Source of the DNA: Paenibacillus alvei
GTDB taxonomy: Bacteria > Bacillota > Bacilli > Paenibacillales > NBRC-103111
Direction: 5' to 3'
Assembly (NCBI GenBank): GCA_945881905.1
Contig: CAMCVV010000014.1
Location: 1 to 46,299, forward strand
Length of the DNA: 46,299 nt
In this document: positions 39,930-46,299 of the stretch, piece after piece
How the letters are laid out: each line of letters starts with the position of its first letter
Position numbering within the stretch: position 1 is the first letter of the stretch
The notes under the pieces: generated by a model
Told to the model about the DNA's origin: nothing
Database searches by the model: none
Seen by the model: only the letters and a program-made list of their open reading frames with translations
Program-made: the position numbers and the translations under genes

Positions 39930-40173
39930 CGAGTGGGGAAATAACTTTAAATTACAATAATTTGTTATATTATTATAATATTAGAAAACAATTATAATAT
40001 ATTTACAAAATAATGTTGATAACATATTTAATTTATGTTACCATTTATGTAATATATTTGTTATATTTTATTAAATAAAGTTTATTTTACATATATAACC
40101 ACACAGAGATTCATGACGTATATCCGAAAACGCATATCCGAAAATCTATTTTCATAAAGAGAGGGATTGTTTG
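39930..40173 (+). promoter_or_regulatory. AT-rich leader of the SLH surface-protein gene
   Basis: About 160 bases (roughly 39940-40100) are almost only A and T. At least one sigma-A-like site is visible, TTTACA then TATTTA with a 17-base spacer (near 39998-40026); several others overlap, so no single one can be chosen. Close to the gene, ATATCCGAAAA is repeated in tandem at 40120-40130 and 40134-40144 (14-base period), placed like an operator or mRNA leader element. The ribosome site is GAGAGGG before ATG 40174. Confidence 0.5.
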
Positions 40174-43107
40174 ATGCGAAAGATGCGCATATGGATATCG
40201 AGATTCATGGTAGCGGTGTTATGTATAACAACGCTTCAGCCATTCGCCTATGTAACAGTGAAGGCAAGTGGATTGGATGCTGAAGCAACGCTGCGCACGA
40301 AGATCGAACACGTGTATGCGTTCCTTTCTCCTGAAGAGAAAGCAGTTGTTCGTTCAGCTATACACGATGCGATGAACAATCCAGAGATCTTCAATGCAAT
40401 CAATGAAGAGATGTTGTGGAATAAGATTAGACCCAAAATAATCGGAAGTAACTTACTGAGTCAAGAGGAGAAGGCATATATCACCAAGTCAAGATTACGC
40501 GATGTGGGTACCTATCTCCTCACACAGATCTTCCCTTGGGATGAAGCATTTCAAGAAATTCCTGCGAATCAATTACATACACTTACGATTTTGGCTAAGG
40601 CCGTAAGCGTAGATCTTGAAACGACCTCGAGGGAAGAATTAGCCCATATTCCATTAGATATCGAGGAATTCATGACAGACTATGTGACTGAGTTAGCGAA
40701 CCCCGAATCGGGTCAGTTGACTTTACTTGAACTGGTTATGAAGGTATTACCCGATACGGAATTGAACTCCGGAGCCATAATCGAAGACTATGTTGAAATG
40801 GTGATTCAAGCGATTTCAGATGAGATCCAAGTCAATGGTGAGCGATTTCCGACGATCGAACTGATCATCGAGGTATTGATGAGCTATGGCATTGATACAG
40901 CTGGATTAACAGCCTTCATGATTCAACTCCTTCGTCAGGTAGAAGCATGGAATGAGGGTGTGATGGAAATCATTGCACTTGGTTTCATTCGCTCAAAAGG
41001 TTCTTTTGAGACGGTTCATGAATACTCGCCATCGACGAACAGCAAAACCATTAAAGCGGAGATTTTTGATCTACACTTGAATGGTAATCTCGTTGATTGG
41101 CGTGTAATGCGTGATGATGTAACGATAGAAATGGATGATTACGGATATGTGCTTCTTAAACCCCGAAGCACGTATTCAGCGAGTAGTGTAACACTTGAAG
41201 GAACGACGAACTTCAATATAGGCAATCATAATTCGCTGCTGAACAACCTATTGAACACGCGAAAGATCATTCAGTTAAATATTCCTTTAGTGGTTCCTGT
41301 TGTGCCAACACCAACACCAACACCAACACCAACACCAACACCAACACCAACACCAACACCGACACCAACACCGACACCGACACCAACACCAACACCAACA
41401 CCGACACCGACACCGACACCAACACCGACACCAACACCAACACCGATTGAGATCACTACGAAAGAATTAGAAGATACGATCAATAAGCTGAACAATGCTT
41501 CACTAACGGATATGGTCACTCAAGTCGCTACCGTGATTACCCAATTAAATACAGTCGTATCCGGCATTAAATCCGAAGCTGAAGCGATACGTGTGCTCGA
41601 ATCATTCTCGAATATTTTCGGAGGTGTGGCTTCAATTATTCAAAAATCGACCGTGACTGCGCTGAATCTAGAAGTAAAACAAAAGCTCTTAAATGATCTC
41701 AATGATCAAGTAGCAGATCTAGTCAAACTCTCCGTCCTCGTATGCAGTAACATTGAATCGCCTGAAGAATTAAAGAAAAGTGCTGTTATGTTGGTTCGAA
41801 AAATCTCTGATGTATATGAATTGTCAAATGATGAGGTGTCTAGAGAAACCTCAGGTGTGAATCGTCTCTTAAGAGAAACGAATCAAATGATTACCGAAGT
41901 AGCAATACTTGCAGGTAAGCAGACAGTTACTGCGCAAAACATCACACAATCAGGTAACACCGTGTCGGCGACCATAGATTTAACCATATTAACTTCGGCT
42001 CGAGATGAAATGACAGCAATGACCGTGTACTTAACTACAGAACTGAAGAATCGGAATATCCCGATTGATCGAGCGGTTCCGCGTATCGCTCCAATTGAAG
42101 TGCCCTTATCAGAGGGCGGAAACAAGATGGTCATCAAGCTGCCGTCCAATGAACTTACATTTGCCCAAGTCGATGAAGTGAGAATCTCTTCACCATTAGG
42201 GATAATCCAGTTTGATCAGAATACGTTCGGTCGAGATGCGACAATATCACAACTTGAAATCGATATCGAAAATGTGAACAGAAATTCAATCACACCTGCA
42301 CAGTTAAAACAAGTTCCAGAAAACAGTACAATTATTGACATTAAAGCAAAAATCGGTTCTACGAGGATCACTTCACTGCCAGGTGTAATTCAGATCTCCA
42401 TTCCATATCAGCGAAAACCAGGGGAAGCCAAAGACAAAATCACGGTATACTTCATTTCAACTGAAGGTGAAATCGAATCGATTACAGGTACCTATGATGG
42501 ACAGTACGCCCACTTCTTCACGAACCATTTCAGCAATTATTATATACATGTATCGACAACAAGTTTTGAAGACCTTGGTGGAGTGGGTTGGGCTCAAAAT
42601 GCAATCGAATCGCTAGCAGGTAAAGGGATTCTGTTGGGAAAAAGCCGCGGGAAATTCAATCCTTCGGATAACATCAACCGAGCGGAATTCACTGTTATGT
42701 TGACTCGAATCCTTGCACTGCCTTCAAGTGATACAAGCACTTTACCTTTCACTGATGTGGAAACAAGTGATTGGTTCTTTCAACAACTTGCTGTAGCATA
42801 CAGAGCGGGATACATTACAGGACGTAATTTGACGTTATTTGACCCGTATAGTGTAATCACACGTGAAGAAATGGCGACGATGCTGTCTCGTGCTCTCGTC
42901 AAATTGGGGTATCTCCCAGGCGATCTTCAGGAACTCATTCCGTACAAAGATAGAGAGAAAATATTGAATTACGCAAAAATCCCTGTCGCAATGACGATTC
43001 GACAAGGGATCTTTAACGGATATCCCAGCGGAGAGTACAAACCGCAACATGCAGCGACTCGTGCAGAAGCAGCTGTCGCGATGTATCGATTCTTAGAAAA
43101 CAAATGA
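40174..43107 (+). CDS. Secreted SLH-domain surface protein with Pro-Thr linker
   Basis: 977-aa exported protein starting at ATG 40174. It has a signal peptide (basic MRKMR, hydrophobic core, likely cut near VKASG). Residues about 35-370 form an acidic, probably helical region that I do not recognise. Then comes a linker of 23 Pro-Thr dipeptides (41305-41442), a second, largely helical region with beta-rich parts, and three C-terminal SLH domains (from about 42570 to the end: FEDLGGVGWAQNAIESL, FTDVETSDWFFQQL, and one ending AAVAMYRFLENK). SLH domains bind pyruvylated secondary cell wall polymer, so the protein should be displayed on the surface. Function beyond that is unknown. Confidence 0.9.
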   Translation: MRKMRIWISRFMVAVLCITTLQPFAYVTVKASGLDAEATLRTKIEHVYAFLSPEEKAVVRSAIHDAMNNPEIFNAINEEMLWNKIRPKIIGSNLLSQEEKAYITKSRLRDVGTYLLTQIFPWDEAFQEIPANQLHTLTILAKAVSVDLETTSREELAHIPLDIEEFMTDYVTELANPESGQLTLLELVMKVLPDTELNSGAIIEDYVEMVIQAISDEIQVNGERFPTIELIIEVLMSYGIDTAGLTAFMIQLLRQVEAWNEGVMEIIALGFIRSKGSFETVHEYSPSTNSKTIKAEIFDLHLNGNLVDWRVMRDDVTIEMDDYGYVLLKPRSTYSASSVTLEGTTNFNIGNHNSLLNNLLNTRKIIQLNIPLVVPVVPTPTPTPTPTPTPTPTPTPTPTPTPTPTPTPTPTPTPTPTPTPTPTPIEITTKELEDTINKLNNASLTDMVTQVATVITQLNTVVSGIKSEAEAIRVLESFSNIFGGVASIIQKSTVTALNLEVKQKLLNDLNDQVADLVKLSVLVCSNIESPEELKKSAVMLVRKISDVYELSNDEVSRETSGVNRLLRETNQMITEVAILAGKQTVTAQNITQSGNTVSATIDLTILTSARDEMTAMTVYLTTELKNRNIPIDRAVPRIAPIEVPLSEGGNKMVIKLPSNELTFAQVDEVRISSPLGIIQFDQNTFGRDATISQLEIDIENVNRNSITPAQLKQVPENSTIIDIKAKIGSTRITSLPGVIQISIPYQRKPGEAKDKITVYFISTEGEIESITGTYDGQYAHFFTNHFSNYYIHVSTTSFEDLGGVGWAQNAIESLAGKGILLGKSRGKFNPSDNINRAEFTVMLTRILALPSSDTSTLPFTDVETSDWFFQQLAVAYRAGYITGRNLTLFDPYSVITREEMATMLSRALVKLGYLPGDLQELIPYKDREKILNYAKIPVAMTIRQGIFNGYPSGEYKPQHAATRAEAAVAMYRFLENK
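41305..41442 (+). repeat. Hexanucleotide tandem repeat (CCAACA/CCGACA)x23
   Basis: 138 bases of a 6-base unit, CCAACA or CCGACA, encoding 23 Pro-Thr dipeptides. Unit variation A/G is at a third codon position and is silent. Loss or gain of units stays in frame, so linker length could vary between strains without frameshift. Confidence 0.97.
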
Positions 43108-43280: not shown

Positions 43281-43354
<74 letters not shown>

Positions 43355-43388
43355 TTCATTTCTCTCTCAATCCATGGTTTCTGTATAA

Positions 43389-43462
43389 GGGCCCTTAGCT
43401 CAGTTGGTTAGAGCAGTCGGCTCATAACCGATAGGTCGGGGGTTCGAGTCCCTCAAGGCCCA
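43389..43462 (+). tRNA. tRNA with CAT anticodon, probably tRNA-Ile2
   Basis: 74 bases without CCA; anticodon CAT in CTCATAA. The acceptor begins with paired GGG, so it is not an initiator. The D-arm and anticodon-arm sequence resemble Bacillus tRNA-Ile2, whose C34 is changed to lysidine by TilS so that it reads ATA; elongator tRNA-Met is the alternative. The acceptor stem has a C6/A67 mismatch, where the homologue as I recall it has a T-A pair. Confidence 0.85.
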
Positions 43463-43734
43463 GTTGTATATATTAATTTCCATAGCATTCATTCAACGAA
43501 TCATGAGAGAAATGAAATTTATTGGCAGTCATTTCCTTCATTCACAAATGGGAATCGATTGCCTTATTTATTAGAAGAATCATTGAAGAAATACGTAAGT
43601 GATATATCGATGTTCGAGAAGTATTGATGTGGGTAGAATAAGTATCCTATCGGAAATTCCTGAAAGAGGATATTGCAATCCTGTGAAGAATAAGAACCAG
43701 ACGAATCAAGATCAGATACATATCGTTAATATGA

Positions 43735-43820
43735 GCCGGAGTGGCGGAATCGGCAGACGCACAGGACTTAAAATCCTGCGGTAGGTGACTACCGTACCGG
43801 TTCAAGTCCGGTCTTCGGCA
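43735..43820 (+). tRNA. tRNA-Leu (TAA)
   Basis: 86 bases without CCA. It is a class II tRNA with a long variable arm (GGTAGGTGACTACC region). The anticodon TAA lies in ACTTAAAAT, decoding TTA/TTG. The acceptor pairs GCCGGAG with CTTCGGC (one G-U). The 270 bases between this and the previous tRNA show no supported gene. Confidence 0.93.
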
Positions 43821-44273: not shown

Positions 44274-44302
44274 TTGACATTAAATAATTCAAACATTATA
44301 AT
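44274..44302 (+). promoter_or_regulatory. Perfect consensus sigma-A promoter of the oxygenase operon
   Basis: TTGACA (44274-44279), a 17-base spacer and TATAAT (44297-44302): both hexamers are exact consensus with ideal spacing. Such promoters are very strong and usually need a repressor; a palindrome lies directly downstream. Confidence 0.9.
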
Positions 44303-44304
44303 CG

Positions 44305-44319
44305 TTATATTAAATATAA
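44305..44319. promoter_or_regulatory. 7-1-7 palindrome over the transcription start (likely operator)
   Basis: TTATATT-A-AATATAA is a perfect 7-1-7 inverted repeat beginning two bases after the -10 and covering the predicted start near 44309. The architecture is that of Fur-family boxes; it differs from the PerR consensus TTATAATnATTATAA at one symmetric position per half. The region is AT-rich, which raises the chance of coincidental symmetry. Confidence 0.55.
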
Positions 44320-44353
44320 TTTAGAATACTGAATTTAAGAGGTGGGGTTAATT

Positions 44354-45190
44354 ATGAATCTTAGCAATAAGTATTACCAGCTGATTAAAGAAGGTTATTG
44401 TGTTTTTGAAAATGTATTAGATAAAAGGATGATTCAGTCGTTAAGTATATTAGCAGAGAATATTTTGGGAAATCAGACAAACGAAGAAAAGGAGAAATTT
44501 CGTTCTCAAGGAAGTTTAGTTCCTGTTTCAATAGATCCAATATTCGCAGAGTTGATATCGTATCCGGCTGCTATCCAAGCTCTTGGTTCACTTGGATATA
44601 AGGATCCAAAATTTATGAGTGGGTACATCATTAGCAAACCACCTAAGAGTCCAAGACTATTCTGGCATTCTGATTTCATGATGTATAACGAATCTGGAGT
44701 CATGGATAAATACCCGGAACAATTATTTCTCATGTATTATATTCAAGATACTACTGCGCATAATGGATGCTTGAGAGTCATTCCAGGATCGCATTTAGCT
44801 GAGAATCCTTTGCATCATGAACTTGAAGATGCTCATGCAGAAACACTAGCAAGAGCAAACGACCTTTCTTTGCCAGCCTTCTCAACACGTTCTGATGAGA
44901 TAGACGTAAATATTCAAGCAGGAGATTTAATCATAGGGGATTCTCGTTTACTGCACGCTTCTCATTCAAATGAATCCAATCTTCGTAGAACGAATATAAC
45001 ATTGTGGTATTTACCAGAATTTCATCATTTGTCTGAATCCAAAAAAGCATTTTATGCAAGCGTACGTATGCAGACACCTGAACAATGGCCTTTAAATATG
45101 CAGAATTTGATAGAACCTGTTTTAGTAAATTATGATGGAAATGTCGAACCACTTCCTCAAAATAGAAATCGATTAACAACTAAAAAGTAA
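44354..45190 (+). CDS. Phytanoyl-CoA dioxygenase (PhyH) family Fe(II)/2-oxoglutarate oxygenase
   Basis: 278 aa; ATG 44354 follows AGAGGTGGGG. The double-stranded beta-helix oxygenase motifs are visible: H105-x-D107 in FWHSDF, a distal histidine at 201 in LLHASHS, and RRTNITLWYLP with an arginine suited to 2-oxoglutarate. GCLRVIPGSHL is typical of PhyH proteins. Substrate is unknown: the family hydroxylates acyl-CoAs, ectoine, natural-product intermediates and others. It is followed after 14 bases by a diiron desaturase-family gene, so the two probably act on one pathway. Sampled lines of this gene look more AT-rich than the housekeeping genes, compatible with acquisition. Confidence 0.88.
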   Translation: MNLSNKYYQLIKEGYCVFENVLDKRMIQSLSILAENILGNQTNEEKEKFRSQGSLVPVSIDPIFAELISYPAAIQALGSLGYKDPKFMSGYIISKPPKSPRLFWHSDFMMYNESGVMDKYPEQLFLMYYIQDTTAHNGCLRVIPGSHLAENPLHHELEDAHAETLARANDLSLPAFSTRSDEIDVNIQAGDLIIGDSRLLHASHSNESNLRRTNITLWYLPEFHHLSESKKAFYASVRMQTPEQWPLNMQNLIEPVLVNYDGNVEPLPQNRNRLTTKK

Positions 45191-45204
45191 ATAGGAGCAA
45201 AACT

Positions 45205-46293
45205 ATGCCTAACAAGATGAGAAGAAATTACAGTCTGATAGGTCCAGAAAATCAATCGGCTCAAGACAAAGGACTTGCAACAGCTGAATGGTATTCGAGC
45301 CCGATACCCCGTAAAAGACTTAAAGAGCTGATGGAGCGTAAAAATGGGCCAGCTATAAGAGACACTATTATTTGGTTTTCAGCACTCATAATTATCGGTT
45401 ATTTGGCGTATCTCTCATGGGGAACATGGTGGTCTGTTCCATTTTTTTTGATTTATGGTATTCTGTGGGCTTCCCCTGGTGATTCTCGTTGGCATGAATG
45501 TGGTCATGGGACAGCTTTTAAAACGCCATGGATGAATGAAGTCGTATACCAGATCGCTTCTTTCATGATTTTCAGACCAGCGACAGCTTGGCGTTGGAGT
45601 CATGCACGTCATCATACTGACACGATCATTGTGGGTCGAGATCCAGAGATCGTAGCACCAAGACCACCTGTTTGGCGCGTAATTTTAATGGAAATCTTCC
45701 GACTTTATTCCGTACCCAATGACCTGAAACGAACATTATTACATTTTATTGGTAAACTAGAAAAGCAAGAAAAGGATTACATACCATTATCAGAACAACG
45801 AAAAATATTTTTGGAATCACGTATATCAATCATCATCTTACTTGGCATCGTGATTTGGTCAATTTCGATTGAAAGTATACTGCCTGCTATGTTGATTGGT
45901 CTTCCAGTCTTGTATGGCAATTTCATTGTACTCTTATTCGCTAGTGCTCAGCACTTGGGATTAAATGAAGATGTGCTTGATCATCGTTTGAATACGCGAA
46001 CCGTCTATATGAACCCTATATCGAGATTCTTATATTGGAATATGAATTATCATATGGAGCATCATATGTTTCCAATGGTTCCCTATCATGCATTACCAGC
46101 TTTACATGAAGAGATGAAGGCAGATTGTCCGGCAGCAAGCCCTAATATAGGGGTAGCTCTTGGAGAAGTGTTCAATACACTTGTTAAACAACACAAAGAC
46201 CCTACATACACAGTAGTACGTCCATTACCAACCACAGCTCGCCCTTATAAGTATGGCCCACATCCCTTTGGCACAACGGTTAATGACAATTAG
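45205..46293 (+). CDS. Membrane fatty-acid-desaturase-superfamily hydroxylase (MocD-like)
   Basis: 362-aa membrane protein starting at ATG 45205 after AGGAG. Three histidine boxes of the membrane diiron superfamily are present: HECGH (97-101), HARHH (133-137) and HMEHH (283-287), with an extra QH at 249-250. Membrane segments lie near residues 55-90 and 205-250. The conserved N-terminal (KGLATAEWYSSPIPRKR) and LDHRLNTRTVYMNP blocks recall the bacterial group that includes MocD, an oxygenase component of rhizopine catabolism that works with a Rieske protein (MocE) and a reductase (MocF); this link is from memory and not tested. It ends six bases before the window edge, so a redox partner could follow. 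Confidence 0.85.
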   Translation: MPNKMRRNYSLIGPENQSAQDKGLATAEWYSSPIPRKRLKELMERKNGPAIRDTIIWFSALIIIGYLAYLSWGTWWSVPFFLIYGILWASPGDSRWHECGHGTAFKTPWMNEVVYQIASFMIFRPATAWRWSHARHHTDTIIVGRDPEIVAPRPPVWRVILMEIFRLYSVPNDLKRTLLHFIGKLEKQEKDYIPLSEQRKIFLESRISIIILLGIVIWSISIESILPAMLIGLPVLYGNFIVLLFASAQHLGLNEDVLDHRLNTRTVYMNPISRFLYWNMNYHMEHHMFPMVPYHALPALHEEMKADCPAASPNIGVALGEVFNTLVKQHKDPTYTVVRPLPTTARPYKYGPHPFGTTVNDN

Positions 46294-46299
46294 GTAAGT

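Follow-up and report, generated by a model that had tools for sequence, protein, structure and literature searches.

The window, the whole 46,299-nucleotide stretch of DNA analysed here, ends in two adjacent genes for iron-dependent oxygenases of different families. The initial annotation read them as one operon whose products oxidize a single lipid or small molecule in successive steps. We asked whether the two genes belong together, and what the second of them, which recalls MocD, might do. The answer is a divided one: the MocD-type gene is a further member of a known family, and its PhyH neighbour is not conserved.

The oxygenase pair at the end of contig C14

The first gene encodes a PhyH-family 2-oxoglutarate/Fe(II) oxygenase of 278 amino acids counted from its ATG (44354-45190, + strand; PF05721, E 3e-21). 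It is followed after a 14-bp gap, on the same strand, by the gene for a MocD-type membrane diiron oxygenase with the FA_desaturase fold (45205-46293, + strand; 362 amino acids in an ORF complete to its stop; PF00487, E 9e-41). Both ORFs are intact. The ATG of the PhyH gene is preceded by AGGTGGGG, and an in-frame GTG upstream would add four residues. In front of the pair lies a predicted sigma-70-type promoter (TTGACA-17 nt-TATAAT, 44274-44302, + strand) that matches the consensus at 12 of 12 positions, and before that a cluster of tRNA-Met (CAT), tRNA-Met (CAT) and tRNA-Leu (TAA) (43281-43820, + strand) recovered by both ARAGORN and Rfam, so that the order from 5' to 3' is tRNA cluster, predicted promoter, PhyH gene and diiron gene. 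The layout first described for this locus, two oxygenase genes 14 bases apart behind a strong promoter and downstream of three tRNA genes, was thus borne out. The PhyH and MocD-type genes probably share one transcript starting from the consensus promoter.

The window coincides with contig C14 in its full length, part of a draft assembly (2.40 Mb, 87 contigs, 99.6% complete), and ends at 46299, 6 bp past the stop codon of the diiron gene. A search of all contigs found the final 20 bases of C14 only once in the genome. No Rieske, reductase or transporter gene lies beside the pair on C14, which stops at that point. Upstream of the tRNA genes, positions 40171-43107 encode a large protein of surface type in which a long (TP)n stretch lies near 41271-41519; the DNA of this repeat has matches at many sites in relatives.

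The PhyH protein scored 77 bits against PF05721 (gathering cutoff 22 bits), and its Fe/2-oxoglutarate residues are intact (HSD at 105-107, H201 and R212). The HxD...H residues and the arginine that binds 2-oxoglutarate, namely H105, D107, H201 and R212, were invariant in 8 aligned sequences. It thus shares the fold and the active site of the PhyH/EctD-type oxygenases of PF05721, whereas it reaches no curated subfamily; against ectoine hydroxylase (TIGR02408) it scored 29.1 bits, with a cutoff of 336.5 bits. The structure model was of moderate quality (pLDDT 66) and matched the family as a whole, with PHYHD1, SnoN, SptF, SnoK, AviO1 and HygX as the best PDB fold matches, and it pointed to no substrate.

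Conservation of the PhyH-MocD arrangement

Neighbouring genes were counted at 50 loci of diiron homologs from the family Paenibacillaceae and at a wider set of 80 loci, 130 in total. These counts were made by tblastn, because simple ORF calling misses genes in G+C-rich loci. The PhyH-MocD tandem was present at none of the 130 other diiron loci. A pattern scan of the species genomes found no close relative of the PhyH gene, and 395 genomes of the order held one full-length homolog (54% identity, genome G386) and one truncated homolog (genome G055). Neither has a diiron gene alongside, though G386 carries three elsewhere in its genome; G055 carries none. In addition, both genes are absent downstream of the tRNA cluster in 13 relatives that keep this cluster. 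Considering the lack of a tandem elsewhere, the solitary state of the closest PhyH homologs and the 13 relatives without the cassette, the tandem is best seen as specific to this lineage. Thus, of the two expectations attached to the initial annotation, that redox partners would be found and that the pair would stay together across genomes, the first survives, as described below, and the second fails.

The same data bear on the proposal of a sequential pathway, in which the PhyH enzyme and the MocD-type enzyme would act in turn on one small molecule. The 14-bp gap and the single consensus promoter ahead of the pair speak for it, as does the second diiron copy, on contig C33, where a sugar-transporter cluster includes a PhyH gene at a distance of 5 kb. 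PhyH genes also lie within ~8 kb of 10 of the 50 family diiron loci; their density in the genomes (562 matches in ~248 Mb) would predict ~2. However, this enrichment counts loci that are related and not independent, both gene classes inhabit sugar clusters, and the PhyH genes in question belong to other subgroups and are only distant kin of the one in the window. Since the tandem was not found again at 130 loci and the G386 and G055 homologs stand alone, the sequential pathway is not supported. We regard such a dedicated two-oxygenase pathway as unlikely.

Another explanation is that two independently acquired oxygenases came to lie by the tRNA cluster in this lineage, with a common promoter and separate pathways. 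The 13 relatives that have the same tRNA cluster and lack both genes are consistent with it, and so is the uniqueness of the tandem in the survey. The G+C content differs along the region (35.7% in the PhyH gene, 33% in the region upstream, 40.8% in the diiron gene and 42.2% in the window), and about 15 PhyH genes are scattered over the host genome. Nevertheless, the tight, operon-like spacing and the intact catalytic residues of both genes suggest selection for co-expression, and no integrase was seen beside the pair. We therefore hold this explanation only tentatively; it can stand together with the reading of the MocD gene favoured below. PhyH genes were located on contigs C1, C4, C5, C13, C15, C26, C31, C33, C49 and C51, and their density in this 2.4-Mb genome is about three times that in larger genomes of the same family.

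Family and gene neighbourhoods of the diiron oxygenase

MocDEF is known chiefly from the use of rhizopines by legume symbionts, and the superfamily of the diiron protein also includes desaturases and amino-acid hydroxylases. The protein encoded in the window shows 51-55% identity, over ~95% of its length, to the mocD products of mocDEF-type operons from rhizobial and Acidiphilium plasmids, in which the genes follow the order mocD-mocE-mocF. It keeps the diiron boxes HECGH (97), HARHH (133) and HMEHH (283) as well as QH at 249, and the His boxes H97-H101, H133-H137 and H283-H287 are invariant across 22 aligned homologs from several phyla. These two lines of evidence confirm the resemblance to MocD noticed at the outset, and we assign the gene to the MocD family with very high confidence.

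Two other identities, a hydroxylase acting on a guanidino amino acid in the manner of GntB and a genuine fatty acid desaturase, would be suggested by weak matches to GntB arginine hydroxylase (NF041365, 2.6e-8) and to the fatty acid desaturase DesB (NF052549, 9.6e-15). Their scores of 33.7 and 54.7 bits are nonetheless far under the curated cutoffs of 380 and 500 bits, and across the family the surrounding genes serve sugar/inositol and C1 metabolism or encode MocE Rieske partners, which makes either identity very improbable. The score for carotene hydroxylase was also far below its curated cutoff. The structure model of the diiron protein, predicted from an alignment that left out the rhizobial rows, had no close solved relative. 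In the phylogenetic tree, the window copy fell outside every marked group; as it is unplaced there, the neighbours of sister genes do not fix its substrate.

Of 104 genomes of the host's taxonomic family, which includes Paenibacillus validus, P. caseinilyticus and P. aceris, 33 carry homologs of the diiron gene; the species genomes contain at least 583 stretches with such homologs. A MocE-type Rieske gene lies directly downstream on the same strand at 41 of the 50 family loci and 67 of the 80 wider loci. The MocD-MocE unit is widespread, occurring in Paenibacillaceae, Alphaproteobacteria, Verrucomicrobia, Acidobacteria, Bacteroidota and others, within sugar/inositol clusters. GFO/IDH/MocA dehydrogenases were nearby at 22/50 family and 39/80 wider loci, and IolE-like TIM barrels at 21/50 and 28/80, respectively. 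One further homolog, from R. leguminosarum, adjoins iolD/iolE and a Gfo/Idh/MocA gene and has no annotated Rieske neighbour. At one locus (L118, genome G094), the unit forms a tandem array of MocD-MocE-MocD-MocE-reductase with FdhA nearby. At another (L123, G086:C44), the diiron homolog is broken into two overlapping frames and is apparently a decayed copy.

Genes of C1 metabolism accompany a minority of the homologs. FdhA lies near 11 of the 50 Paenibacillaceae loci, and any C1 gene near 18 of the 80 wider ones; PanB is near 17 of these 80, joined by PurU in 3. None of FdhA, PanB and PurU was near any of 24 control loci. The mocDEF operons of Mesorhizobium huakuii and Agrobacterium run on into PanB, PurU and FolD, an arrangement that may represent a folate route for formaldehyde. 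Proteobacterial mocDEF genes followed by a PanB-like hydroxymethyltransferase, PurU and FolD were seen at L228:11721-14334 and L229:10665-13293. The survey thus revealed a MocD-MocE unit that is present in many phyla with two unrelated solutions to formaldehyde disposal, FdhA and PanB-PurU-FolD. Two unrelated C1-disposal routes beside one oxygenase are the best evidence here, from gene context, for the release of formaldehyde. Together with the inositol and sugar genes, they make oxidative O-demethylation, with a small polar methyl ether as substrate, more likely than the oxidation of a lipid; a lipid substrate, one of the two options in the initial annotation, is not supported.

Redox partners and the proposed reaction

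The whole assembly contains one MocE-type Rieske gene, which is located on contig C22, where an AraC regulator and the mocD remnant are followed by FdhA, MocE and FAD reductase. The Rieske protein scored 152.5 bits against the MocE family model TIGR02377 (cutoff 136.15 bits), and the FdhA protein scored 761.7 bits against the model of glutathione-independent formaldehyde dehydrogenase, TIGR02819 (cutoff 636.95 bits). Two internal deletions, together with a shift of frame, have removed His box 2 from the mocD gene of this contig (L012:3301-3989). The rest of the operon, with FdhA, MocE and the reductase, is intact, so that the module seems to have persisted after the loss of its own oxygenase. 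The intact mocD genes of the genome are three, on C14 (the window), C33 and C38, and the paralogs on C33 and C38 have no Rieske neighbour. Given a single MocE-type Rieske gene and intact copies that lack one alongside, a shared C22 chain is the economical reading: the three intact MocD oxygenases probably draw on it, and the MocD of the window likely depends on this module. The draft state of the assembly leaves room for a missing Rieske copy beside C14. Rieske and reductase partners had been suggested as possibly lying just past the window; they are indeed adjacent in most homologs and present in this genome, although here they are encoded on C22 and not on C14.

In rhizobia, mocDEF takes part in breaking down 3-O-methyl-scyllo-inosamine, which is a methyl ether (PMC10107442, PMC3538637), and the clusters that contain it are tied to rhizopine catabolism (PMC5789663). 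MocD has been described as the oxygenase that converts 3-O-methyl-scyllo-inosamine (3-O-MSI) into scyllo-inosamine (SI) (PMC2593844). The present system resembles MocDEF of Sinorhizobium/Rhizobium in its MocD family membership, in the MocE-family Rieske protein and FAD reductase of the host genome, and in the inositol- and sugar-type neighbours of its homologs. It differs in that the partners lie on another contig, with FdhA in the partner operon, and in that the window gene belongs to a Gram-positive host and has a PhyH gene directly upstream. In addition, neither the surroundings of the window gene nor the C22 module contain mocA, mocB, mocC or mocR, and the locus is therefore not classed as a rhizopine cluster of the mocCABRDEF type.

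In the mechanism that we propose, the MocD-type enzyme would be a Rieske-dependent membrane diiron monooxygenase that most likely acts on a small polar methyl ether, such as an O-methyl inositol or sugar, and hydroxylates its methyl carbon. Collapse of the hemiacetal would then yield the free alcohol and formaldehyde. The probable electron source is NAD(P)H, with the FAD reductase and then the MocE-type Rieske ferredoxin, both from C22, as carriers, and the formaldehyde would probably be cleared by the FdhA encoded beside them. On the basis of gene context, we favour such an O-demethylation with moderate confidence, in respect of both the demethylation and the class of substrate. The PhyH enzyme would be a lineage-specific addition that either oxidizes a related compound in an accessory step or has an unrelated role. 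A joint action of both enzymes on a single sugar or inositol that is O-methylated and perhaps multiply substituted, served by a distant redox and formaldehyde module common to several MocD paralogs, seems rather improbable to us.

It follows as a general prediction that MocDEF enzymes, which frequently carry the annotation of fatty acid desaturase, should demethylate methylated sugars and inositols and release formaldehyde in doing so. A parallel exists in marine Flavobacteriia, where a P450-ferredoxin-reductase system carries out the oxidative demethylation of 6-O-methyl-D-galactose (PMC10033563). The reaction logic is the one proposed here, with a monooxygenase and its redox partners yielding free sugar and formaldehyde, whereas that oxygenase is a haem P450 of an unrelated family and the window enzyme is a membrane diiron protein.
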